Translations under genes and position numbers: made by a program
Origin: a virus
DNA: 37,817 nt
IMG/VR virus record: IMGVR_UViG_3300025771_000005
Location: 1-37,817 of that record
Reading direction: 5' to 3' (one strand)
In this document: one piece after another, positions 2,408 to 34,931 of the stretch
How positions within the stretch are numbered: position 1 is the first letter of the stretch
Layout: the number at the start of each line of letters is the position of its first letter
Notes under the pieces: generated by a model
Told to the model about the DNA's origin: nothing
Database searches by the model: none
Seen by the model: the letters and a program-made list of their open reading frames with translations, nothing else

Positions 2408-2821
2408 TTAGTCCAATCGTATTTTCAGGTTTCCAGCGGAAATGCGAAAGATGTCGCCCGTCTCAATCGTCTTAGGCAAGGCAGTAGTAAAATCGCTTGG
2501 ATCGGTAAGCTGTGCATATGCAAGCAAATTTCCACCGCTAGAAGCGTCGTAAACGCCAGCGTAAGTCACGGTTCCCCATGAGGCTGTGGCAGTCGGAAAC
2601 TCAATTGCAGATGTTGTTGCCGCTTCCGTTGGACTTGTGCCGCTCACAGAAAACGTAGCGGTTTGACGCGCGTATGACCCACCAGACACCTCAGTGCCTG
2701 CAGCGCTATCGCTAGACGCAGACGTGTGCAGCCCAACGTAAAGTGTTGATGGCGCGGTATAGGCGGCGCCTTCGAACACATGCCCCAGTATCTTATCTTC
2801 AAGATAGTCTGTAAAACTCAT
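2408..2821 (-). CDS. Tail-associated structural protein (small conserved fibre-like family)
   Basis: 137 residues. The protein begins with a short helix (SFTDYLEDKILGHVF) and then has a beta-rich body with the recurrent phage motif around YVGLHTSASSD...GTEVSGGSYARQ. Small proteins with a Y-V-(A/G)-L-(H/Y)-T strand followed by E-V-S-G-G-x-Y-A-R are widely annotated as phage tail fibre or minor structural proteins; the exact role is unknown. It lies directly between the adaptor genes and the tail fibre. Its start ATG touches the stop of the upstream gene, so translation is probably coupled. Confidence 0.7.
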   Translation of the reverse strand: MSFTDYLEDKILGHVFEGAAYTAPSTLYVGLHTSASSDSAAGTEVSGGSYARQTATFSVSGTSPTEAATTSAIEFPTATASWGTVTYAGVYDASSGGNLLAYAQLTDPSDFTTALPKTIETGDIFRISAGNLKIRLD

Positions 2822-3438
2822 TAGTAACTCCTAAGATGCATTCGCAAGCCAGACTTCTGGCTCATGGCTTTTTCTGACGATAGATTAACACTATCAAGAG
2901 CAGATTGATATAGGTTCGCCCAGACGGGTATTCTCGCGTCCTCACCCAAGAATGGCGCCGTATGCATCAACGTGCCATACAGATAAACGTCCGGCGCATC
3001 CTGCAGTAGCCAGTTGTATGTGTTGCTATCAGACAGAGCCTCGTTCTTTGCGTAATACAATAGCTCCGCAGTGTATGCCGTGTCTGGCGTTGGATACACC
3101 TCAAACGCGCCATCGCTCATTGTGAAATAACGCGGGCGCCCTGTCGTGTTTAACGCATCCACGCGCTTGCTGATGATTTCAGCGTGGCTTACTTGTGTGA
3201 GTTCAAACGTATTGCCCTCGCTCAAGTAAAAGCGAATGCTCTCTAGCCAGTCAGTCGGCACACGCGAATACTGATCGTCTAGCTGAACTGTCGCGCGCTT
3301 TTCCATTTTCCAATGGCGAACCTTGCGCGCGATGTCTGCTTCCGCCAAGTCAATAAACGTATCAATCGTCTGATCGATGTCAGGCTTATTGATGAAGTTT
3401 CTAACTTGGTCTTTGAGTTCCGCGTATGTCGATGGCAT
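2821..3438 (-). CDS. Head-tail adaptor-like protein, copy 2
   Basis: 205 residues. The start (STYAELKDQVRNFINKPDID, then TIDTFIDLAEADI) matches the fold pattern of the SU10/P22 gp4-type adaptors that attach under the portal ring. The central motifs RPRYFTM, VYPTP, LLYY and DAPDVYLYGTLMHTAPFL are shared, in order, with the upstream neighbour, so the two are clear paralogs. Expected role: a dodecameric ring linking portal to tail. Which of the two is the true adaptor cannot be told here; the other may be a tail-tube or gatekeeper-like piece. Confidence 0.75.
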   Translation of the reverse strand: MPSTYAELKDQVRNFINKPDIDQTIDTFIDLAEADIARKVRHWKMEKRATVQLDDQYSRVPTDWLESIRFYLSEGNTFELTQVSHAEIISKRVDALNTTGRPRYFTMSDGAFEVYPTPDTAYTAELLYYAKNEALSDSNTYNWLLQDAPDVYLYGTLMHTAPFLGEDARIPVWANLYQSALDSVNLSSEKAMSQKSGLRMHLRSY

Positions 3439-15482: not shown

Positions 15483-15653
15483 CTACACGTCATCACGATC
15501 CTGCTCCATTTCGAGAGCACGCATCAACACCTGACGAAACCCGTGCTCAAAGAAAAACGCGTAAAGCTCCTTCGACATATCCACGCTCAGCGTCGCAGAG
15601 CCATCCTCGTGCTCCGTTATATCGATCACCTTGATCTCGTTATGCGTCGTCAT
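15483..15653 (-). CDS. 56-residue micro-protein after small terminase
   Basis: Starts at ATG 15653 inside the end of the small-terminase gene (14-base overlap), with GGAGG six bases upstream. The protein has IKVIDITEHEDGSATLSVDM, then SKELYAFFFEHGFRQVLMRAL, a pattern shared by many short phage proteins with an E-D-G-S-A strand. Function unknown. Confidence 0.7.
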   Translation of the reverse strand: MTTHNEIKVIDITEHEDGSATLSVDMSKELYAFFFEHGFRQVLMRALEMEQDRDDV

Positions 15654-16083
15654 CGTCTACCTCCACAGCTTCACCCTCAATCACGTCGCCAAGCAACTGC
15701 GCAGCCTGCGCGTGCAAGTCGTTCACGCTGATGTTGATTGCCACGTCACGTTGCCGCGTGTCGTACTGCGCGTTCAACTTCGACGCCATCCACTTATCCG
15801 TATCCACTTGCAAGCGCGCTACGTTGACCATCGACGGATCTGTGTTCTGCGCCGTATCGACTGCACGCTCTGCGTAGTAATGCCCAGCCTCCAACTGCGC
15901 AGACGCGTAGCGATCACGTCTGCCAGCCTTAGCGTCTAACCACTTCGCCCACAGCTTGTACCCGATCTTCTGCTCTGCCATGATTTTACGTATGCTCTTG
16001 CCGCGCGCGATCTGCTCGAACAGCTCGTCCTCGCCTATCTCTTCTAGCGCCGCGATCTTTGCCTTGCCGACTTCACCGACCAT
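15640..16083 (-). CDS. terS: Terminase small subunit (Sf6-like)
   Basis: 147 residues. The N-terminal part (EDELFEQIARGKSIRKIMAEQKIGYKLWAKWLDA) is a helix-turn-helix; then YASAQLEAGHYYAERAVDTAQ and MVNVARLQVDTDKWMASKLNAQYD form the oligomerisation helices typical of Sf6-type small terminases. The C-terminus is very acidic (EAVEVDDDDA). It should bind the packaging site and deliver DNA to TerL. It is separated from TerL by a micro-gene and a 343-bp gap. The start overlaps the upstream gene by 11 bases. Confidence 0.85.
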   Translation of the reverse strand: MVGEVGKAKIAALEEIGEDELFEQIARGKSIRKIMAEQKIGYKLWAKWLDAKAGRRDRYASAQLEAGHYYAERAVDTAQNTDPSMVNVARLQVDTDKWMASKLNAQYDTRQRDVAINISVNDLHAQAAQLLGDVIEGEAVEVDDDDA

Positions 16084-16345
16084 CGCTGACGATCTCCCCT
16101 ACCAACGCGGCATAGCCGCAGATGTCGACCCAGTGATCCTGCTTGCGTGGCGACGTCTTACTACGCGCTATCTTTAGCAGCATCATCATGTTGGCCACGT
16201 CGACCACCGTGAAGTCGTGATCCAGATAGGACGACCACAACGCCGCGATCGTCTGGAAGTTGTCCTTTGCGTCGCCGTAGTCCGCGTCACGCTCACCGCT
16301 GATCACGCCTTCTGCTATCGCCAGTATCTCGTCTCTCGTTACCAT
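16073..16345 (-). CDS. DUF6378-like protein
   Basis: 90 residues. The pattern ISGERDADYGDAKDNFQTIAALWSSYL, then VVDVANMMMLLKIARSK and DHWVDICGYAALVGE is typical of DUF6378, a small helical phage family with conserved D-Y-G and D-x-W-V-D-I-x-G-Y-A. The role is not established; the all-helical Asp/Glu pattern resembles MazG-like nucleotide hydrolases, but that is a guess. It overlaps both neighbours by a few bases. Confidence 0.75.
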   Translation of the reverse strand: MVTRDEILAIAEGVISGERDADYGDAKDNFQTIAALWSSYLDHDFTVVDVANMMMLLKIARSKTSPRKQDHWVDICGYAALVGEIVSDGR

Positions 16346-16932
16346 GGAATGTCATCTCCTCCTAAATCCCAGTTGATACGATCGTCTCCGTCACGCACCA
16401 TGCGCGTCACCTTTGCATTCGGAAACGTGTTGAATGCATTGTTCAGGAAAGTCTCCGTCCAGTCAAATCGCAACACACGCGCCGCGTCTTCGAAGCTGTA
16501 GACGATCCAGCTTGGATACTTCTTCCGCAGCTCCGCCGCCCCGTGCAATGCGAAGCACACGATTACCTCCTCACACTGCACACAATACGCATGCGGCGGC
16601 AGCGGCTTATGCCCCGCATCCTCCGCAGCTTTCTCCAGCACGTCCCACGCCCTCATGAGCTGCGTTGCTATCTGATTAGTGCCAACCACGTCATCCGCAT
16701 CCACACGCTCCCTGAGCGCCTCGTATGCCGCCTCGAAGCGGCCAGCTAAATCCGGAGACACCAGATCCGGCAACGTATCGCCCCACCGCTCTATCTTCGT
16801 CTTCGCCTTTTCATCGAGCGGACGCAACTGCCCCCACACGCCAGCACTGATCCTACGCTCCTCACTATTCAGCGTCCCACGCGCCTTCACGTCCTTATAG
16901 CCAACCCTCGCCTTCGTCGCTTTCTTTGCCAT
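16339..16932 (-). CDS. Hypothetical protein
   Basis: 197 residues; no family recognised. The N-terminus is basic (AKKATKARVGYKDVKARG). The middle is a helical region with LAGRFEAAYEALRERVDADD and QLMRAWDVLEKAAEDAG. A C-x2-C pair (YCVQCEEVIVCF) then precedes strand YPSWIVYSFEDAARV; the C-terminus is acidic (GDDRINWDLGGDDIPW). The stop overlaps the start of the DUF6378 gene. It is the first gene downstream of the 16958-17092 repeat cluster and may be controlled by it. Confidence 0.7.
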   Translation of the reverse strand: MAKKATKARVGYKDVKARGTLNSEERRISAGVWGQLRPLDEKAKTKIERWGDTLPDLVSPDLAGRFEAAYEALRERVDADDVVGTNQIATQLMRAWDVLEKAAEDAGHKPLPPHAYCVQCEEVIVCFALHGAAELRKKYPSWIVYSFEDAARVLRFDWTETFLNNAFNTFPNAKVTRMVRDGDDRINWDLGGDDIPW

Positions 16933-16957: not shown

Positions 16958-17092
16958 CCTCAGTTACATTCACCTCAGTCCGTATCTTCCTCCTCAGTTA
17001 CGTATATATACGTAAACACTGAGGAGGAGATAAAAACGGCCTCTTTTACCTCACTTCCTCAATCCACCTCACTTTAACTGAGGAGACTGAGG
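16958..17092. promoter_or_regulatory. Symmetric CCTCAGT/ACTGAGG repeat cluster around an 18-bp palindrome
   Basis: Three CCTCAGT copies (16958, 16973, 16992) on the left face three ACTGAGG copies (17018, 17077, 17086) on the right. At the centre is a perfect palindrome TTACGTATATATACGTAA (16998-17015). The arms 16988-16998 and 17018-17028 are also perfect inverted repeats, so about 19 bp can pair with a 3-base bulge. The cluster fills the 185-base gap between two leftward genes. Likely an operator array, a transcript-end hairpin, or a replication-related site. Confidence 0.7.
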
Positions 17093-17117: not shown

Positions 17118-17369
17118 CTAGTGATACGTCCCCGAGAAGCCCTGTTTCAGTAGCGCTTGGTTAAGCGCCTGCGCCATGCACACGTCGGCCATGAGCCCAC
17201 GCAACACCTCCATCACAAATGTCATATCGTCGCTGGCCTCCGACATAAGCGGCATCTCATCTGCGCACCACTCGATGACCGCGCCCTCGACTTCCTCGTC
17301 CCACACGATGCGCCCTAGCTCTAGGCGGTCGTCCTCGTCTGCATGGATCTCACGTACTATCTGTGTCAT
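17118..17369 (-). CDS. Small acidic hypothetical protein
   Basis: 83 residues, strongly acidic at the start (REIHADEDDRLELGRIVWDEE), then a helical C-terminus (FVMEVLRGLMADVCMAQALNQALLK). The ATG overlaps the stop of the upstream nuclease-like gene (ATGA). Unknown function; the acidity is reminiscent of DNA-mimic inhibitors, but nothing further supports that. Last gene before the repeat cluster. Confidence 0.6.
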   Translation of the reverse strand: MTQIVREIHADEDDRLELGRIVWDEEVEGAVIEWCADEMPLMSEASDDMTFVMEVLRGLMADVCMAQALNQALLKQGFSGTYH

Positions 17370-17797
17370 AGCTTCAGCTCCTTAAAGTTTGCTATGTCAA
17401 AGTGTACCATAGGCTCGATGTCTTGTGGATCGTCTCTGCGCGTCGTGCCGCCCATTTCCACATGCATATTCTCGTGCGCTGGCGGAAGTTGTGCGATGCC
17501 GGCTTTGTCAGACCACTGCACGGCGAGGAAGCAGGGTAAGCCCGTCGTCATCGTGAGTGAGCGCGCCTGCATCGCCTTGTAGAGCGACAGCATGTACGTT
17601 GGATACCTGTGCATCGCCGTCTTTCGCTGTCTGGCCTCCACGAACGCGACCGCACGCCCGTCGCGCATCGCCATGAAGTCGAGAGACAGCTTTATTGGCA
17701 TCTTGCGTAGGATGCAGTTGTAGTTGACCTCGATCAGATGCGCCAGCTTGCGCTCGTTCTTGCGATCCTCGGCGGTTTCGTAAAACGGTCTAGTCAT
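17366..17797 (-). CDS. PD-(D/E)XK-nuclease-like protein
   Basis: 143 residues from ATG 17797 (GAGGAG eight bases upstream); a longer in-frame start is less likely. The core LSLDFMAMRDGRAVAFVEARQRK gives an Asp followed by Glu-x-Arg, similar to the D-(D/E)xK site of restriction-like folds but with Arg where Lys is expected. It continues with YPTYMLSLYKAMQARSLTMTTGLPCFLAVQWSD, as in small phage nuclease-like proteins. Activity is uncertain because of the Lys-to-Arg change. It overlaps the PP-loop gene by 8 bases, so the two are likely made together. Confidence 0.55.
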   Translation of the reverse strand: MTRPFYETAEDRKNERKLAHLIEVNYNCILRKMPIKLSLDFMAMRDGRAVAFVEARQRKTAMHRYPTYMLSLYKAMQARSLTMTTGLPCFLAVQWSDKAGIAQLPPAHENMHVEMGGTTRRDDPQDIEPMVHFDIANFKELKL

Positions 17798-18545
17798 GAT
17801 CCCACTCCTCGCAAAATAAGCCGCACTCAAAGTCCAGATTTTTCATTGGCTTTCCGAGTGCGTCTGGGTGAAGCTCGTCCAAGAATATACGCTCGTTGTT
17901 TACACGTACCAACTTCGCTCCAAGTTCCCGCGATTGACTGGCGCGCTCTTCAAACACGTCTGGGTGCATCTTTCTGACGTGGTTCCAGTATGTCGGAGAC
18001 GACGCCTTAACGCAGCCTATGCAATTTGCGTTTGGATAGCCCATCTTGTAAACGCGCGGAGGCTTTATGCCGTTAGCACGCAGTAACTGATAGCAGTCTA
18101 GCTTTGAATACTGTGCATCAATTAGCACTGGCAGAACGTTTTCTCGCTCAGTGCGAACGAAACGCTCGTGACGCCCCTCCTCTTCCGAGGTGAAACCTAG
18201 CACATGAAAGTCGACATGGTTCTTCGCCTCCCATTGCTGCCGAGCCTCCTTCTTCAGTAAAAGCGTACATGGTGCGCCAGCAACGCCAGACATAAACTTG
18301 CGTTTAGCCCAGACGTCAACGGCTGAAGCGCTTGGGAACTTCTCGTTTGTGCATATCTCAATCTCTTGGCCAATCCAGTCTTCGACGTCGCGTAAGAAGC
18401 GGCGATTATCCTCGTCCTCCTCCGCCACAGGGTTGTTAATCACACGCACCTCGCAAAATTCGCCATACTTCTTTATTGTCAAGTGCGCTGCCACTGCACT
18501 AGCGGCTCCACACGAAAACCATACTGCAATAACTTTTTTAGTCAT
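17790..18545 (-). CDS. PP-loop ATP-pyrophosphatase, PAPS-reductase-like
   Basis: 251 residues from ATG 18545 (ATGA overlap with the upstream gene). The N-terminal FSCGAASAVAA is a degenerate PP-loop (normally S-G-G-x-x-S) of the N-type ATP pyrophosphatase / PAPS reductase superfamily. A C-terminal set of cysteines, NCIGCVKASSPTYWN and CGLFC, could bind a Fe-S cluster or zinc. Family members activate a substrate with ATP, for example for sulfur transfer to nucleic acid or sulfate reduction. Phage copies are often annotated only as PAPS-reductase family. With a nuclease-like neighbour and no sulfur-metabolism genes, a nucleic-acid modification role is more likely than sulfate reduction; this is inference. 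Confidence 0.75.
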   Translation of the reverse strand: MTKKVIAVWFSCGAASAVAAHLTIKKYGEFCEVRVINNPVAEEDEDNRRFLRDVEDWIGQEIEICTNEKFPSASAVDVWAKRKFMSGVAGAPCTLLLKKEARQQWEAKNHVDFHVLGFTSEEEGRHERFVRTERENVLPVLIDAQYSKLDCYQLLRANGIKPPRVYKMGYPNANCIGCVKASSPTYWNHVRKMHPDVFEERASQSRELGAKLVRVNNERIFLDELHPDALGKPMKNLDFECGLFCEEWDHD

Positions 18546-18766
18546 AGCCACTCGTCTCCCTCTGTTAGCTTTGGCGCTGTTCGATCGAGCGCAGTGCGTC
18601 TGAGCCGATGCGTCCAGCCTTTACGATTTGTTATCGATATGATGTGCAGGTGATGCACGCCGAGCAAGTCAGCCAGCTCACGCGCCGTGATGTCCCACTC
18701 GCGTCGACTGGCGTAATAATGGATCTGCGCGGCCATGGCTTCCATCTTAGGGTTAAACGTTTCCAC
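18542..18766 (-). CDS. Small helix-turn-helix-like protein
   Basis: 74 residues. REWDITARELADLLGVHHLHIISITNRKGWTH resembles a helix-turn-helix with its recognition helix near residues 35-48. It lies one base after the stop of the primase-helicase gene, and its stop overlaps the PP-loop gene start. It could be a transcription factor or DNA-binding accessory protein; the target is unknown. Confidence 0.55.
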   Translation of the reverse strand: METFNPKMEAMAAQIHYYASRREWDITARELADLLGVHHLHIISITNRKGWTHRLRRTALDRTAPKLTEGDEWL

Positions 18767-18767
18767 A

Positions 18768-20963
18768 TTAGCCCCCTATCTCCGACGCGCTAATCCACTC
18801 GCCCACGACGACGCACTGCACGTCACGCCCCTGCCGTTTATCTGGCCACTCTTCCACCTTTAGCACGCCCGTCTCAATCCACTTGGCCAAGATAGCCTTC
18901 GCCTTCGCCTTCTCGTGCTTCTTGTCCATGTCAAGGTCGAGCTGCACGGCGACGCACTTACCCGCCCAATGGTTCGCACGCGCGTCTAGCCGGTACGGTT
19001 CCTGCCGCTCGGCGGCCTGCCCGATCAGGCGCTGCACGGCCTGTGCGTCGCGTGCGCTGACCCCGTCGAAGAGGTCGGGCATTTTGAACGGAACGCAGAC
19101 GCCCACGTATTCGCCGTTTGGCAGCTCCACCCCGTGCATGCGCCTGTACACAGCCTTCGCCGCCGGTGGCGCGAGGTTCGCCTTGCCGTCGTCGACGCGG
19201 AATATGCCGAGGCTCTCCTGCTCGTTCACGCCGAGCTTTAGGGCGTCTTCTTGGCTAACCTTATTGATGACGCGCGCCGCACGGGCTGCTCCGATCAGCG
19301 ATCCGGCGCCGCGGACGCTGTCGATGGTTGCGTCTTCCCCGTTTGTCTTGCGTATGTGGTGCGTTAATACGACTGCGGCGTCGGTCTGGTCTGCAACCCA
19401 GCGCGCTGCCGACACCGCTGCGTTCATCGCGACGTTGTCGTTTTCATTGATGTCGTTGAAGCTGACCCATGGGTCTATGATGACCAAGCCGATTTTGTTT
19501 TTCTTTATCATGTCGACCATGTACTGCAGCATGTCTTCGTCCGTTAGGATGCCGTCACGCGTCTGCTTTGCGAACTGGATCATGAGCTCACGTCCGGCGT
19601 CGACGAAGAGGCGCCCTTTGATTTCTTCTGACTTGATCCCGTAATGCAGAATAATCGCGGCGAACCGGCGCTGCATTTCCTCTAGCGGGTCTTCGCCGTT
19701 GATAACCCACACGTTGCACTGCTCGTGCACTTCCTCGCCAAGTAGCGCGCGCCCGATGGCAATCGATACGGCCTCCACCATCTGCATCGACGTCTTACCG
19801 GTGCCGCCCTGCGACGCCAACACGCTGACGTAGCCGCGAATGTAGTGCTTACCATAAACCCAGCGGCGCTTCGGTATGAGCGACGGGTCGATGATCTCGA
19901 ACTCCGTTGGCCACTGGCGCTCGCTCTGCTTCTGCTGCTCCGCCATTACGGCATAAGGCTGCGCGGTTGCCAGCGCCTCACGCAATTTTGTTTCGCCGGC
20001 CTCGCGTAGGTAGTCGTTTGCGTCCTTGACGTTTTCTTGGTCAAGCTGATCGAAGCGCACGACGTGCACCTGCGTGCTGCCGTCACCCTTTAGCACGTCC
20101 ACGCACTTGTGCACGTCTAAATCCGGATCGGCGCAGATCGTTACGTCTGATGCGCGTGGCGGTGTATACGTCGCCATGCCCGCCTTGCCGAACGTGCAGA
20201 CGATGGTTGCGTCTTCGCCGACCGCCTGCCTGATGCTGAGCGCGTCCTCTGGCCCCTCCGTAATGCAGATTGGGCGATCGCCTTGCGTTTCGCCGATTTG
20301 CATTACATTTCCCGCTAACACGCCGCGTGAGTATTTCGAGATCCCGTTGACCTCGCGCTTCTTTCCGTCTGGCGTGAGAAGCACCTGCTGTATGCCCTCT
20401 ATCGTGCCCTCCGGCGTTGTCGCGGCGAAGATGATCGCCGGCCCGTCGTATGCGTTTGGCGTGAACTTCGCGATGCCAACGGCGGATGATGCGCGCAGGC
20501 CACGCGAGTTGAGGTAAAGCAGCGCAGGCTTTACGGCGTCTAGATTTTCGCGTGTGATTGGCACGGCGCGCTCCCACGCGTCCTGCGCCTTCTTGATTTT
20601 GTCGCTGCGATTTTCCTCGTCGCGCACGATCAAGTCTTGGCTTGCCAGTCTGGCGATCAGGCGCTCCAGCTCGCTTGGTATATACGGTTGTATATCTGAG
20701 CTTTCTAGCTGCTTTGGGTTTTCGCCTCCGCGTTTAAAACCGCTGCCAATGGTAGACTTTATTTCGAAATCCTTGAGGCCGATTTGCCGCGCCGCAGTGT
20801 GGAGCTGCAGGATTGCGTTATCAATGTTGGCTGGTGAGAGGTGCGCGTGCCGCCCGATCGCAAACGCAGCCTTGTTGAGGTTCTCGTTCCGGCCACCTTT
20901 CATAGATGCGATGACATCGTGCACCGCGCCGTCGAGTACCTTGTTGAAATATGCTTCTGACAT
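18768..20963 (-). CDS. Primase-helicase (Toprim plus RepA-like AAA ATPase)
   Basis: 731 residues. The N-terminus (about 28-82: LNKAAFAIGRHAHLSPANIDNAILQLHTAA..SGFKRGGENP) resembles the helical domain common in phage and plasmid primases. The Toprim part has ICITEGPEDALSI (E236) and VTICADPDLDV (D279, D281). A RecA-like helicase follows: Walker A ASQGGTGKT at 383-391, Walker B GLVIIDPW near 492-499 and a LTHH sensor near 533-536. It should prime and unwind for a host polymerase, since no phage polymerase is present. A ribosome-binding site (AGGGA) precedes the ATG. Confidence 0.9.
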   Translation of the reverse strand: MSEAYFNKVLDGAVHDVIASMKGGRNENLNKAAFAIGRHAHLSPANIDNAILQLHTAARQIGLKDFEIKSTIGSGFKRGGENPKQLESSDIQPYIPSELERLIARLASQDLIVRDEENRSDKIKKAQDAWERAVPITRENLDAVKPALLYLNSRGLRASSAVGIAKFTPNAYDGPAIIFAATTPEGTIEGIQQVLLTPDGKKREVNGISKYSRGVLAGNVMQIGETQGDRPICITEGPEDALSIRQAVGEDATIVCTFGKAGMATYTPPRASDVTICADPDLDVHKCVDVLKGDGSTQVHVVRFDQLDQENVKDANDYLREAGETKLREALATAQPYAVMAEQQKQSERQWPTEFEIIDPSLIPKRRWVYGKHYIRGYVSVLASQGGTGKTSMQMVEAVSIAIGRALLGEEVHEQCNVWVINGEDPLEEMQRRFAAIILHYGIKSEEIKGRLFVDAGRELMIQFAKQTRDGILTDEDMLQYMVDMIKKNKIGLVIIDPWVSFNDINENDNVAMNAAVSAARWVADQTDAAVVLTHHIRKTNGEDATIDSVRGAGSLIGAARAARVINKVSQEDALKLGVNEQESLGIFRVDDGKANLAPPAAKAVYRRMHGVELPNGEYVGVCVPFKMPDLFDGVSARDAQAVQRLIGQAAERQEPYRLDARANHWAGKCVAVQLDLDMDKKHEKAKAKAILAKWIETGVLKVEEWPDKRQGRDVQCVVVGEWISASEIGG

Positions 20964-21639: not shown

Positions 21640-22434
21640 TTAGTTTGCCTCTGTAAATTTGAACGACCAAGGCGGGATACGGATCGTCGTCAACTCCCCG
21701 TAATTGTAGCCCCACTCGTTGTTGGCTTGCGCTATCGCGTATTGCTCCAGCGCATACTGGACAGCCGCTTCGCCCTCGTTCAGGCTCTCGGTGTCGAGTT
21801 CGTAAATTCCTACTTTGTACGGTGCATCCTTCCCGACAGCTATAAATATAAACCGATCCACCTCGTGCCCGTCAAGCTCCATCACCCTGCGGTAGAAGCT
21901 CTCCTGAATATGGTATCCAAGATTGGCCGCCTGCTTAGCGAACCCTTCCGGCGATGGATCGATGGTCGTCTTTAAGTCGAGCACGCATGCGATGTCTGTA
22001 CGCCAACCGTCTGGACGCGCCCGCAGATCCACGCCTGTCAGCGCGTCCTGCGTAAGTACGCTGGCCTCGCAGACGAGGTTGCCAGATAGCATCTCGGCGG
22101 CTGCAGGGTTTGCGCGTACCGCCTCTGCCATGCGGCTCACCTGATCGTATTCTTTCGTGTTCAAGATGATCGCGCCAGCCTCGTCGGCGCTTTCCTTGAA
22201 CTCGTTGTACTCCTTGCCGGCGCGACGTCCATCCCATTGCCAAATAGTGTCCGCTTGGTTTGGCTCAAACACAAGAGTGTGCACTGCGGTGCCGACGATC
22301 ATCGCCGTCGTCTCCTTGCGCTCACCATGTTTATAGTCGGCGAGTGATTGCATCGCGATCGTCTTTGCGCCTGACGCGGACAGATGCGGCAGCGCGTGAT
22401 ACTCCGCGTTTGATAAGTCGTGATTAACTGCCAT
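21640..22434 (-). CDS. Exonuclease, RecE/PDDEXK-like
   Basis: 264 residues. GTAVHTLVFEP (H52) at the N-terminal side, then LRARPDGW (D142), LDLKTT (D153, K155) and QAANLGYHIQESFY (Q168, Y174, Q177) match the catalytic order of the PD-(D/E)XK exonucleases seen beside phage SSBs. The expected role is 5'-3' resection for recombination. No annealing (Erf, RecT or Red-beta) gene is recognisable in the window, so the SSB-like protein may take that part, or the exonuclease may degrade host DNA. Confidence 0.85.
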   Translation of the reverse strand: MAVNHDLSNAEYHALPHLSASGAKTIAMQSLADYKHGERKETTAMIVGTAVHTLVFEPNQADTIWQWDGRRAGKEYNEFKESADEAGAIILNTKEYDQVSRMAEAVRANPAAAEMLSGNLVCEASVLTQDALTGVDLRARPDGWRTDIACVLDLKTTIDPSPEGFAKQAANLGYHIQESFYRRVMELDGHEVDRFIFIAVGKDAPYKVGIYELDTESLNEGEAAVQYALEQYAIAQANNEWGYNYGELTTIRIPPWSFKFTEAN

Positions 22435-22879
22435 CGTATTTCCCCTTCCCGAACAACGCGATTAGCAATGCCTCCGCACGGTGCTCATCCTTCTTGCGTT
22501 TTAACTGGCTTGCGAGATCCGGAAACCACTGCTGCGCGAGCCTGCGTGCGGCGTCCTTGTCACGCGGTAAATTAAGCGCACGCTTCCAGTTGTTTGGCGT
22601 CACAAGCGTATACGGAGAGCGCGACAGCGCGCATGTAGACACGATCTGGCCGAAGGCGTAGCCCAACTTAAACGTGGAGACGACGCCCTGCTTTGGCATA
22701 GCCTGTTGTCTCTCAATGTATATGTGATCAACTTTTTCGACTGAGGTTATGATATCCATTAGTGACGTAACGTCAACTCCACCCTCATCGTATGTTGGCA
22801 AGTCGTGAACCTCTGACCAGTCATCGCCTACAAGTGCGACGCCGCCAGTACGATATCCGCAGTCAATTCCGATGATCAT
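22424..22879 (-). CDS. RuvC-like Holliday junction resolvase
   Basis: 151 residues. The RNase H fold begins IIGIDCGYRTGGVALVG (D6), followed by HIYIERQQAM (E56) and KKDEHRAEALLIAL (D131, H133, E136). These are the acidic residues of the RuvC-type metal site. Likely function: debranching replication or recombination intermediates before packaging. It overlaps both neighbours (11 and 17 bases), giving a compact recombination block. Confidence 0.85.
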   Translation of the reverse strand: MIIGIDCGYRTGGVALVGDDWSEVHDLPTYDEGGVDVTSLMDIITSVEKVDHIYIERQQAMPKQGVVSTFKLGYAFGQIVSTCALSRSPYTLVTPNNWKRALNLPRDKDAARRLAQQWFPDLASQLKRKKDEHRAEALLIALFGKGKYDGS

Positions 22880-25349: not shown

Positions 25350-25640
25350 TCATATTTTATGCTTGGAGCGAAATTCGTATAATCGTTGCAGAGTTATGTC
25401 GAGCTTTCTGGCTATCTGCCTGTTATCTTTACCAGCCGCTGCCATCTCCTTAATCACTTGGTAGTGGCGCTCATTACGCTTTCGGCCTCCCTTCTGGCCA
25501 GCCTCACGCTGCGCATTGCTCATGTTGACCTTTTTCTGCATGATGCGGTTTTCGTTACCGCACACTTCCTTGATGATGTCGATGCACATAAGCCAACGCT
25601 CTTCAGTTGGAAGCATTCCCCTTGGCCAAGTAAAACTCAT
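25350..25640 (-). CDS. Helix-turn-helix protein
   Basis: 96 residues from ATG 25640 with GGAGG seven bases upstream. The C-terminal MAAAGKDNRQIARKLDITLQRLYEFRSKHKI is a resolvase-type helix-turn-helix. The centre is basic (MSNAQREAGQKGGRKRNERHYQ), and the start (MSFTWPRGMLPTEERWLMCI) is unlike known domains. Probably DNA-binding; a regulator is the simplest guess. The start overlaps the stop of the upstream micro-gene (TAATG). Confidence 0.6.
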   Translation of the reverse strand: MSFTWPRGMLPTEERWLMCIDIIKEVCGNENRIMQKKVNMSNAQREAGQKGGRKRNERHYQVIKEMAAAGKDNRQIARKLDITLQRLYEFRSKHKI

Positions 25641-32155: not shown

Positions 32156-34035
32156 TACCGTTTACCCCCTTGCTGCGCATCAACACGAACAATGCCAAGC
32201 CTGAAGTTGGAACCGTCATCTGGCTCCACGCGCATCTTAAATTGACGGCCAGCGAAGCGTAGCCCTGTCGGCGTTGCGGGGTTAAACGGGCCGTGCTCTG
32301 TCTCGTCGCCATTCGGGTAAAAGCGAGACTTGAACTTCACCTGAACGTCACCCTTTGCGCGTTCATCTGCAATCATCTGGGTTACGTGTGTAATGTTGTC
32401 GCCGTTGCCTAGCTGTATCGGGCCAGTCTCAGCAAACATATTTGTCGCGCCAATGTTTGACTGCTCATGCTCGTAAACATCTGTGCTTTCTAAGAGCAAT
32501 GGATGGCGGAATACGCCGCGCGGTGCGCCTGCGGTGCGAGATAGCGATCCAATGTGCCAGTGGTTTTCTTTGAAATCGTAGGCAACGTATTTGTCGATCT
32601 CACCTGTATCGGTCTGCGCATCAGATTGATAGAACCACCAGACTTCGCCAAACTCTGAATTATTCCACGCCCAAACCTTAGATTTGTTTGTGTCCTGTAT
32701 CTCGCCAAACACATGGTCAAACACATCGCACGGTATTTCTTGCACGACGTTACCATCGAAACGGAAAAAGCCACGTTGGCCCATCCAAAATACGCCTGCA
32801 TCCGTGTCAACTGCCGCCGCGCGGGATATTGCACCGCAGGCTGTGCCGACACGTTGGAAGCCATAAATGAACGGCGGGCCGCTGTATCTTGCGCTGTGCG
32901 CGTCGATGTCAGTTAGTATCAAAACCTGACCGCGTGTGCGAATACCCTGCATTATCTGGCCAGCAGTCTGCAGCTCAATGTCGCCAGCTTGGTTTGCGGA
33001 TGTTGGCGTCCACGCGGTGTTATCCTCAATGTCGCACCACTGCACTTTGCGTGGGTTATTCCCAGCGCCTAACGCAAAAATAATACGCTCCTCGGTGACA
33101 ACCGCACCAAGATTTCCTATTGGCGCGTTAGAGATTTGCGCTGCATCACTCGATGTATTTAACTGCCACTCGTACAGCTTGCCGTCAGCATATGAACAAG
33201 CGATCAAATACTCGCCCCAGTTGTCCAGTGACCATGTGTTTGCCTCTGAGTAAGAGCCAAATTCAGACCTTTCAACACCATATGCGCCAACACCATAGTT
33301 ACCGTACCCGTAGCCTGTTTCTAACGTGCTATGCTCGTCTCCAGCCGTAAGGCCAGTCGGCGTGATGTCATAGAACATGTTATTTGATGTAGCCACTCTT
33401 AATTCGTTGTATGATCCGCCCGCATAAAAACGCGATCCATCGTTGGCTTCCCATGTGTGAAAACCGCGTATCGGATTTACGCTAATCGCTTTCTGCTTCA
33501 AGCTAATATTATCGATGTACCATTCAGGCGTTACCGTTTGCAGCTTATTGACCATGATAGTGACAGTCCCCGCTGCCGTAATATCAAAGTCAAAACTATG
33601 CGATCCATTTGCCACTTCTTCGCTGAGATATATTACCTCATCTGGGCCAAATATGTCTTCTCCAACTCTAACTCTTATAGTGTTGCTTTCACCCAAACCA
33701 CCAACATCAAATGTTATCCTATGCTTGGCAGGGATCACGCTAATATCTTGCGTCAGTGTGGTGGCCGATGGGTAGTTATGTGTCGCGGTATTTGGATAGG
33801 TTCCTGAACTAGAAATTGTCCACCCAGTGGCTGCTGTCCAAGATGTATCAGGTATCGTTGAGAAGTCTCCGTTAGAAACTAGCTCAGCGCCAATCCGCGA
33901 AGTCCATCCACCAACTGGGCGCAGCGTATTGTCACGCCAACGCACGAGTGACGCGTCCTGCCACCTGCCTTGACCCTCTAAGTCCGTGCCGTTCTTATAT
34001 ACGCCTGCTGGCAAGTCTATCGGTACTAACGTCAT
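32155..34035 (-). CDS. Tail nozzle / P22 gp10-like stabilisation protein with inserted carbohydrate-binding-like module
   Basis: 626 residues. The start PAGVYKNGTDLEGQGRWQDA then LVRWRDNTLRPVGGW is typical of the gp10-like nozzle family; later come HTWEANDGSRFYAGGSYNEL, SLDNWGEYLIACSYADGKLY and VFWMGQRGFFRFDGN, consistent with repeated beta-propeller blades. Residues about 48-182 (nucleotides 33489-33894) break in with ELVSNGDFST..WTAATGWT..SFDFDITAAGTVTIM..WYIDNISLK, the layout of CBM4/9-type beta-sandwiches. The nozzle closes the tail channel; the insert may touch surface glycans. Function of the insert is inferred. Confidence 0.7.
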   Translation of the reverse strand: MTLVPIDLPAGVYKNGTDLEGQGRWQDASLVRWRDNTLRPVGGWTSRIGAELVSNGDFSTIPDTSWTAATGWTISSSGTYPNTATHNYPSATTLTQDISVIPAKHRITFDVGGLGESNTIRVRVGEDIFGPDEVIYLSEEVANGSHSFDFDITAAGTVTIMVNKLQTVTPEWYIDNISLKQKAISVNPIRGFHTWEANDGSRFYAGGSYNELRVATSNNMFYDITPTGLTAGDEHSTLETGYGYGNYGVGAYGVERSEFGSYSEANTWSLDNWGEYLIACSYADGKLYEWQLNTSSDAAQISNAPIGNLGAVVTEERIIFALGAGNNPRKVQWCDIEDNTAWTPTSANQAGDIELQTAGQIMQGIRTRGQVLILTDIDAHSARYSGPPFIYGFQRVGTACGAISRAAAVDTDAGVFWMGQRGFFRFDGNVVQEIPCDVFDHVFGEIQDTNKSKVWAWNNSEFGEVWWFYQSDAQTDTGEIDKYVAYDFKENHWHIGSLSRTAGAPRGVFRHPLLLESTDVYEHEQSNIGATNMFAETGPIQLGNGDNITHVTQMIADERAKGDVQVKFKSRFYPNGDETEHGPFNPATPTGLRFAGRQFKMRVEPDDGSNFRLGIVRVDAQQGGKR

Positions 34036-34931
34036 GCCTGCGATCCATAAATTGTTCCGTTATTCACAACTGTGATTGATGTGCCTGAGATTGCAGCGCC
34101 CCCCGCTGCACCAGAGCCACCACCCGCTGCGCCCCAACCGCCGCCACCGTCACCAACGTAAGTCGCAGTGCCAGCGCCACCTGCGTTGCCAAGCGACCCG
34201 CCTGTACCGCCTGTTCCGATTGGCCCTGCGGGGTCTGACGTGCCTCCCGCTCCGCCTGAGCCGTTTAGGATGCGTCCACCACCGCCGCCGCCGTTTACGC
34301 GAAGGCCCTCAAACCAGTTGGAGCCTGCACCGCCGCCCCCACCAGTGCCACCGCCTACGCCGCGCCCACCGCCGCCGCCTGAGTACACGTCCTGTGGCGC
34401 GCTTGTGCCTGATTGGCCGACGGCTCCGCCTGTTCCGCCAGAGTAGATTGTGCCGTTCTCATGGCGACCACGGCCACCGTTACCGCCACCTGCGCCACCG
34501 CCGCCTCCGCCGTAGCCTGAGCCTCCTCCGCCGCCGCCACCGCCGCCCGCGATGTATGCGCCAGATTGGTTGGTGATCGTCACGCCTGTCGCGCTGTTAT
34601 CAATCGCTGGCCCGCCGCTTTGTGCTGCGCCGTCATAGCCGCCGCCGTTTCCGCCGCGACCAATGATGTAGCCAGAGTTAAAGATTGTTACCTTGCCGCT
34701 CATGCTGCTCGGTATGATTAATCCGCCAACCGTCACATCGTCAGACCAGATGTAAACGCCAGACGCGATGCTAACGATAACCTTGTCGCTGCCGTTCCAT
34801 CCCTCTGACGTAAGATACGTGCTAAGGTTTAGCTCTTGCTGGTTAGATGTAATCGTAAACTCGAAGACACCAGCCGTTCTAAAGCCAAAGCCCCTAGCTG
34901 ACATTCCTCCGAAGGTTGATAGTGCTGGCAT
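34032..34931 (-). CDS. Glycine-rich adhesin-like protein
   Basis: 299 residues. A beta-type N-terminal domain (about 20-88: GVFEFTITSNQQELNLSTYL, DKVIVSIASGVYIWSDDVTV) is followed by about 190 residues dominated by Gly runs between short loops such as HENGTIYSG, APQDVYSG and NWFEGLRVNG. The end is TSITVVNNGTIYGSQA. Repeated Gly stretches with variable loops recall the polyglycine-II sandwich of the T-even gp38 (phage S16) receptor-binding tip. The start overlaps the stop of the upstream fibre-like gene by one base. Adhesin role is inferred. Confidence 0.65.
   Translation of the reverse strand: MPALSTFGGMSARGFGFRTAGVFEFTITSNQQELNLSTYLTSEGWNGSDKVIVSIASGVYIWSDDVTVGGLIIPSSMSGKVTIFNSGYIIGRGGNGGGYDGAAQSGGPAIDNSATGVTITNQSGAYIAGGGGGGGGGSGYGGGGGGAGGGNGGRGRHENGTIYSGGTGGAVGQSGTSAPQDVYSGGGGGRGVGGGTGGGGGAGSNWFEGLRVNGGGGGGRILNGSGGAGGTSDPAGPIGTGGTGGSLGNAGGAGTATYVGDGGGGWGAAGGGSGAAGGAAISGTSITVVNNGTIYGSQA

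Follow-up and report, generated by a model that had tools for sequence, protein, structure and literature searches.

A candidate iteron-type origin in uncultured marine phages and a predicted two-contact code linking it to the phage primase-helicase

One polypeptide of P4, the alpha protein, unites Toprim primase and helicase with a winged helix for binding the short repeats of the origin, and RSF1010 has been named as a similar kind of initiation (PMC4234260). In the SaPI Rep/ori and SCCmec Cch2 systems, the helicase uses its C-terminal domain to recognise iterons that immediately follow its own gene (PMC7581432). The DNA-binding domain of RepA from the Vibrio cholerae satellite PLE covaries with its origin and the two swap together; an origin-directed phage nuclease has been proposed as the force selecting that swap (PMC8263062). 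In geminiviruses, the virus specificity of replication by Rep is set by short bidirectional iterons close to a stem-loop (PMC8540022). The origin of plasmid pRN1, which lies downstream of the replication gene, requires a stem-loop whose sequence is not conserved (PMC4234260).

The window, as we call the whole stretch of DNA analysed here, is a 37.8-kb virus record (37,817 nucleotides). A terminal direct repeat of 59 bases makes it probable that this phage genome is complete and was assembled as a circle. Its portal and capsid genes are of the SU10 type. As the original prediction had noted, a repeat array occupies the gap between the replication-side and terminase-side leftward genes; the genes bordering it are an 83-aa gene (17118-17369) and a 197-aa gene (16339-16932). 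This array is very probably an iteron-type origin of replication that is read by the primase-helicase of the phage. The features of the array are:

16958-17092, no strand assigned: predicted origin, an iteron array with nine CCTCA-core sites
16958-16964, plus strand: CCTCAGT iteron, by sequence match
16973-16979, plus strand: CCTCAGT iteron, by sequence match
16983-17032, minus strand: predicted hairpin formed by the central iteron pair and the palindrome
16992-16998, plus strand: CCTCAGT iteron, one arm of the central pair (extended arm TCCTCCTCAGT)
16998-17015, no strand assigned: central palindrome TTACGTATATATACGTAA, its self-complementarity but not its sequence kept in relatives
17018-17024, minus strand: iteron reading ACTGAGG on the plus strand, second arm of the central pair
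17049-17055, plus strand: CCTCACT iteron
17057-17063, plus strand: CCTCAAT iteron variant
17067-17073, plus strand: CCTCACT iteron
17077-17083, minus strand: iteron reading ACTGAGG on the plus strand
17086-17092, minus strand: iteron reading ACTGAGG on the plus strand

The predicted reader is encoded upstream, on the minus strand:

18768-20963, minus strand: 731-aa primase-helicase, predicted iteron-binding initiator, from domain matches and covariation
Residues 233-324 of this protein: Toprim domain (Pfam Toprim_3)
Residues 359-612: helicase domain of the AAA_25, RSF1010-RepA type
18771-19073, minus strand: C-terminal domain (residues ~631-731), a predicted winged-helix DNA-binding domain in an AlphaFold2 model
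18831-18833, minus strand: codon of residue 711 (Gln in the window), in the turn of the wing, predictor of iteron base 3
18978-18980, minus strand: codon of residue 662 (Arg in the window), predictor of iteron base 6

Like P4 alpha, this protein carries Toprim, helicase and C-terminal winged helix in one chain, the last of these being a model. Its helicase differs: it is of the AAA_25, RSF1010-RepA type, while that of P4 alpha belongs to the SF3 family. P4 also has a second site, crr, whereas these phages have one array per genome. By analogy, the initiator of the window would work like P4 alpha without being its homologue throughout. As in SaPI Rep and Cch2, a C-terminal domain of a helicase is predicted to read the iterons; the SaPI and SCCmec helicases are instead of the DUF927 or D5 type, and the phage protein has a fused Toprim primase and iterons at fixed spacing around a palindrome. 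RSF1010 (IncQ) shares a sequence-related RepA helicase domain and an iteron-type origin, but its RepA, RepB' and RepC are three separate polypeptides where the phage has one chain. RSF1010 has ssi hairpins. The helicase domain matches the structure of RSF1010 RepA (1G8Y) with an E value of 1.2e-5 for the window protein and 7.5e-18 for RepA of Rhodoferax phage P26218. PLE differs from the phages studied here in its RepA_N domain, its ~30-bp semi-palindromic iterons and its wholesale domain exchange, with no single-residue code. Geminivirus Rep is a rolling-circle nicking protein of eukaryotic ssDNA viruses, and we claim no homology to it.

The original prediction described a six-copy mirror-symmetric array. 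Its heptamers (CCTCAGT at 16958, 16973 and 16992; ACTGAGG at 17018, 17077 and 17086), its palindrome (16998-17015) and the perfect pairing of the 11-bp arms (16988-16998 with 17018-17028) are where it placed them. The total is not six, however, because the sites at 17049, 17057 and 17067 were absent from its list. There are nine, which split six to three by orientation and flank a 44-nt imperfect hairpin; the coding (minus) strand reads F F R R R - F, palindrome, R R R. Only the central pair is mirror-symmetric; the array taken as a whole is not. CCTCAGT occurs 11 times in the whole window against an expected 3.2, a count reached in 0 of 100 shuffles. Six heptamers in ~135 bp appeared in 0 of 300 dinucleotide shuffles (the biggest shuffled cluster had two), and the eight-site CCTCA[CG] cluster exceeds the shuffle maximum of five, which allowed any third base. 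These tests rule out chance clustering. As expected of an origin, short repeats are clustered at one intergenic place, and an AT-rich, potentially unwinding segment lies beside them: GC content in the array falls to 0.40 against 0.53 for the window, and the central palindrome is AT-rich in the window phage. GC skew in the window tracks gene orientation and marks no origin.

Relatives were collected from IMG/VR with TerL and the 197-aa neighbour as baits, which gave 80 and 64 hits and 131 distinct loci; 117 rows, the window counted in, have the 197-aa gene. The loci are metagenome contigs, and since a few are two cuts of the same contig, our statistics count distinct sequences rather than loci. 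More than 110 relatives have the array upstream of the 197-aa gene. The original prediction named relatives without the heptamers in this gap as a refutation; the opposite is seen, with the array retained there, often with another third base. Exceptions are contigs that end in the gap, locus L070, which is rearranged, and a few arrays with partial deletions (e.g. L086); three loci of the L113 group fall below the cluster threshold, though their array is visible by reading. Longer loci have one array each, with an extra minor four-site cluster in L051. Sites lie at about -86, -77, -60, -50, -41 and -18 on one side of the centre and +15, +28/+34 and +49 on the other, in a table in which some rows were centred by script on another palindrome and have shifted numbers. 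This spacing is unchanged even where the neighbouring protein is only 50% identical. A DNA search of annotated phage genomes returned distant gene matches only, and a search for prophage relatives among genome contigs confirmed none.

The central palindrome follows a different rule. Across lineages it occurs as TTACGTATA, TTGCATATA, TAGCGTATA, CGCTAT, CCCTAT, TCGTATAT and ACGCC. Its inner pairing nonetheless averages 7.6 of 9 positions, against 5.0 in shuffles, over 24 distinct sequences, some of which are individually non-significant. In the window, positions 16980-17035 folded as DNA give -16.1 kcal/mol (z -7.2). A search of the window against Rfam gave no match. The conserved self-complementarity suggests a hairpin or cruciform, or else a second binder that is symmetric.

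The iterons themselves vary in a concerted way. The third base of CCNCA is common to practically all copies within an array and is T, A, G or C between phages. The spacers between iterons retain their own sequences, so the copies have not been homogenised by simple duplication; a reader common to all of them must have changed. One could instead imagine that the array acts only as RNA or single-stranded structure, with compensatory changes between forward and reverse copies. The strong predicted hairpin of the central pair and the pairing kept in the palindrome despite sequence change would fit this idea. Most arrays, however, have three forward and six reverse copies, leaving some without partners, and yet all copies change together; the base change also tracks a protein residue, as described below. 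Structure as the sole explanation is extremely unlikely, although a hairpin may be present in addition to protein-read iterons.

Each alignment column of eight conserved phage proteins was scored as a predictor of the iteron base. Residue 711 of the primase-helicase predicts base 3, with Gln corresponding to T or C, Asp to G, and Ala, Thr or His to A. It makes 3 errors in 110 distinct sequences, all of them in C arrays, where Gln is found as in T arrays. The second-best column of this protein errs 19 times; for TerL, TerS, the 197-aa protein, SSB, the exonuclease and the RuvC-like protein, even the best columns err 14-21 times. On contigs outside the discovery set, many of them close relatives of one another, the rule was right in 49 of 49 cases. 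A FastTree-quality tree built without the C-terminal domain places at least 14 changes of the base and at least 13 of the residue. Independent pairs agree in 10 of 10 cases for A versus the rest (p 0.002) and in 7 of 7 for G versus the rest (p 0.016). For T versus the rest there are four pairs on well-supported branches, of which three agree and one, probably T/C, is undecided, a comparison that is non-significant alone. Among close pairs, residue 711 differs in all 73 that are discordant for T, A or G and is the same in all 656 concordant ones; 36 further pairs are T/C. In their C-terminal part, three C sequences differ from T sisters only at residue 708, Ala for Asp. We would guess from this one lineage that Ala at 708 sets C specificity.

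Some arrays depart from these classes in detail. Within the A-class arrays of L049, L022 and L034 stand isolated CCGCAC / GTGCGG copies, which belong to another class and may have survived from a recent switch; residue 711 is His in L049 and L022 and Ala in relatives of L034. In L025, L026, L027 and L105, base 4 is relaxed (CCTTAC and CCTAAC beside CCTCAC), base 3 is always T, residue 711 is Gln, and the wing reads KRQGKE instead of KRQGRD.

The scoring bears equally on other candidate binders. The gap lies upstream of genes leading to an Sf6-type small terminase subunit (TerS, 15640-16083) and to TerL, and terminase recognition sites often lie near such genes. The array could then be a pac or cos packaging site bound by the TerS encoded 1 kb downstream. 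No TerS column follows the motif, however: the best makes 16 errors in 81, and that of TerL 21 in 73, against 3 in 110 for residue 711. TerS of the A-class locus L102 is 95% identical to that of the window, whereas TerS of the T-class locus L091 is only 70% identical. We consider a packaging site very unlikely.

The ribbon-helix-helix (RHH) and helix-turn-helix (HTH) regulators of the phage, which the original prediction nominated as binders, fare no better. RHH proteins can bind short repeated sites, and the RHH gene is conserved in many relatives, but no column of this protein follows the motif (9 errors in 42 at best). The 74-aa HTH gene (18542-18766) is missing from most array-bearing relatives, and the HTH gene at 25350-25640 is present in just part of them. 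The chance that the array is an operator for any of these regulators is close to negligible.

A second position of the iteron gives a similar picture for the primase-helicase. Residue 662 predicts base 6, scored as majority G or C, with zero errors (Arg with G, 40; Gln with C, 66-68), and the second-best column makes 8 errors. This rule was found and scored on one and the same data set. Independent switches of base 6 agree with residue 662 in 5 of 5 cases (p 0.06, the limit for five pairs). Arrays associated with Gln have C at 571 of 587 sites, while those associated with Arg are mixed (223 G and 71 C), so Arg at 662 seems tolerant of either base.

In the AlphaFold2 model, the C-terminus forms three helices and then a two-stranded wing (residues ~637-720, pLDDT mostly 80-91). 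Residue 711 (model residue 152) is in the wing turn, and residue 662 (model residue 103) is just before the second helix. A wing residue that discriminates among A, G and T suggests a wing in the major groove. A fold search with this domain gave only weak winged-helix matches (BLM RQC, RTP and DnaD, with E above 0.01), and its sequence profile matched none of the solved structures.

Close relatives provide natural exchanges of the same two elements. L206 and L207 are ~95% identical in nucleotides over the 2-kb primase gene and most of the following kilobase; identity is 52-79% in the interval of roughly -250 to +200 relative to the primase stop. The DNA-binding domain and the array were exchanged here as a block, a natural domain swap. 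Between L189 and L201, identity is 0.73 in the domain and 0.80-0.85 in the array region ~940 bp away, and mostly 0.84-0.96 between them. Between L044 and L046, 5 of 160 C-terminal residues are different, including 711 (Gln/Asp), and base 3 differs in nine aligned iterons, the pattern of a change in place. The two-residue covariation and the block exchange together show that array and C-terminal domain are mutually dependent at two specific positions of each and travel together, and they make the phage's own replication protein the probable reader of the iterons.

Covariation proves such co-dependence and not replication, and the domain could bind the array for transcription regulation. The original prediction had left the array as an operator, a transcription boundary or a replication-protein site. 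The last of these is now strongly supported, and a scan of the gap for sigma-70-type promoters and intrinsic terminators found neither. An operator through which the C-terminal domain represses or times the terminase-side operon, rather than starting replication, would be well placed in this gap, which immediately precedes the 197-aa gene and the packaging operon, and initiators often autoregulate. A gap without such a promoter argues against it, as does the variable distance of the array downstream of the primase gene (9-1786 bp) at fixed internal geometry, and the predicted binder is a primase-helicase fusion, for which initiation is the simpler role. Transcription control in place of replication is quite unlikely, though the array may serve both.

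For an origin read by the primase-helicase, we propose the following sequence of events. The C-terminal winged helix would bind the nine iterons directly at their fixed spacing, with wing residue 711 contacting base 3 and residue 662 contacting base 6 of CCNCA[G/C]. Binding would load the RepA-type helicase on or beside the AT-rich palindrome that the central inverted pair encloses. The palindrome would melt and open, possibly as a cruciform or hairpin, the fused Toprim domain would prime on it, and replication would start at the array. P4 alpha (PMC4234260) and SaPI Rep / Cch2 (PMC7581432) offer precedents for these steps.

For a large group of uncultured marine phages, sequence alone has given a candidate origin, its putative initiator and a readable recognition code. 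The code is simple and open to single-substitution testing. Close pairs of differing specificity (L044/L046/L049, L206/L207 and L189/L201) are natural experiments on how, in the evolution of DNA recognition, a protein and nine sites switch partners jointly. With slightly less than even confidence, we suggest that the two-contact code (711 with base 3, 662 with base 6) lets nine iterons and their initiator switch while relatives differ by only a few percent, the driver being either competition among relatives that infect the same cell or antagonists aimed at the origin, such as nucleases and satellites. The plan, in which iterons face a self-complementary hairpin whose sequence is free, would then be an origin class undescribed in the open-access literature, in phages with fused RepA-type primase-helicases. 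By analogy with PLE, competition between co-infecting relatives would likewise favour specificity switches.

The neighbourhood of the array has further features. The gene directly downstream (16339-16932, minus strand) encodes the 197-aa protein, which keeps ~50% identity in relatives. This protein has no assigned family, no convincing fold relative when its AlphaFold model (pLDDT 73) was compared with structures, and no match among annotated phage genomes; it is a core protein of this phage group with no function assigned by family or fold. Between the primase gene and the array lies a PAPS-reductase-like gene (17790-18551, minus strand) that few relatives have; similar genes occur in Synechococcus phage S-SRP01 and in Rhizobium phage RHph_N65. 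Upstream of the primase gene are a DUF3799 or exodeoxyribonuclease VIII-like gene (21640-22434, minus strand) and a gene that looks by sequence like a RuvC-type resolvase, without a Pfam hit (22424-22879, minus strand); the two form a recombination module retained in most relatives. Elsewhere in the window, plus-strand CCGCCGC repeats at 34369-34650, inside a gene at 34032-34931, are probably coding repeats.

Beyond this group, three phage genomes have arrays built on this plan from different iterons, after RepA-type genes in P26218 and MW202557 and before terminase-side genes in MW202711. Rhodoferax phage P26218, with its host, is the cultured representative of the plan, and its array lies near 2820-3000 of locus L209. 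P26218 has the gene order RepA, small gene, gap, small gene in the TerS position, and TerL, with TGCTAC at -69, -60, -46 and -21 and at +24, +30, +46 and +62 around a hairpin. GGGACA sites in MW202711 face each other across CTCTATATAGAG. The repeat clusters of these two genomes exceed those of 60 of 60 shuffles. In MW202557 the corresponding place is taken by TACTCA sites with a GGGTAAAGGGTTTTTAAACCCTTACCC hairpin, an array claimed by reading the sequence, as the shuffle test is dominated by a tandem repeat elsewhere. The stretch read in Rhizobium phage RHph_X2_26, which has the closest helicase domain of those compared (39.6%), contained no clear array, and the Microcystis phage among the hits has a tandem repeat only. 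Upstream of RepA in MW202557 (L211), long direct tandem repeats with ACAGATCGGCC-type units at 3090-3360 fall in a stretch annotated as a pentapeptide-repeat protein. MW202711 (L135) has, besides its GGGACA array, an array of GAACGT units at 293-440 within the repA reading frame.
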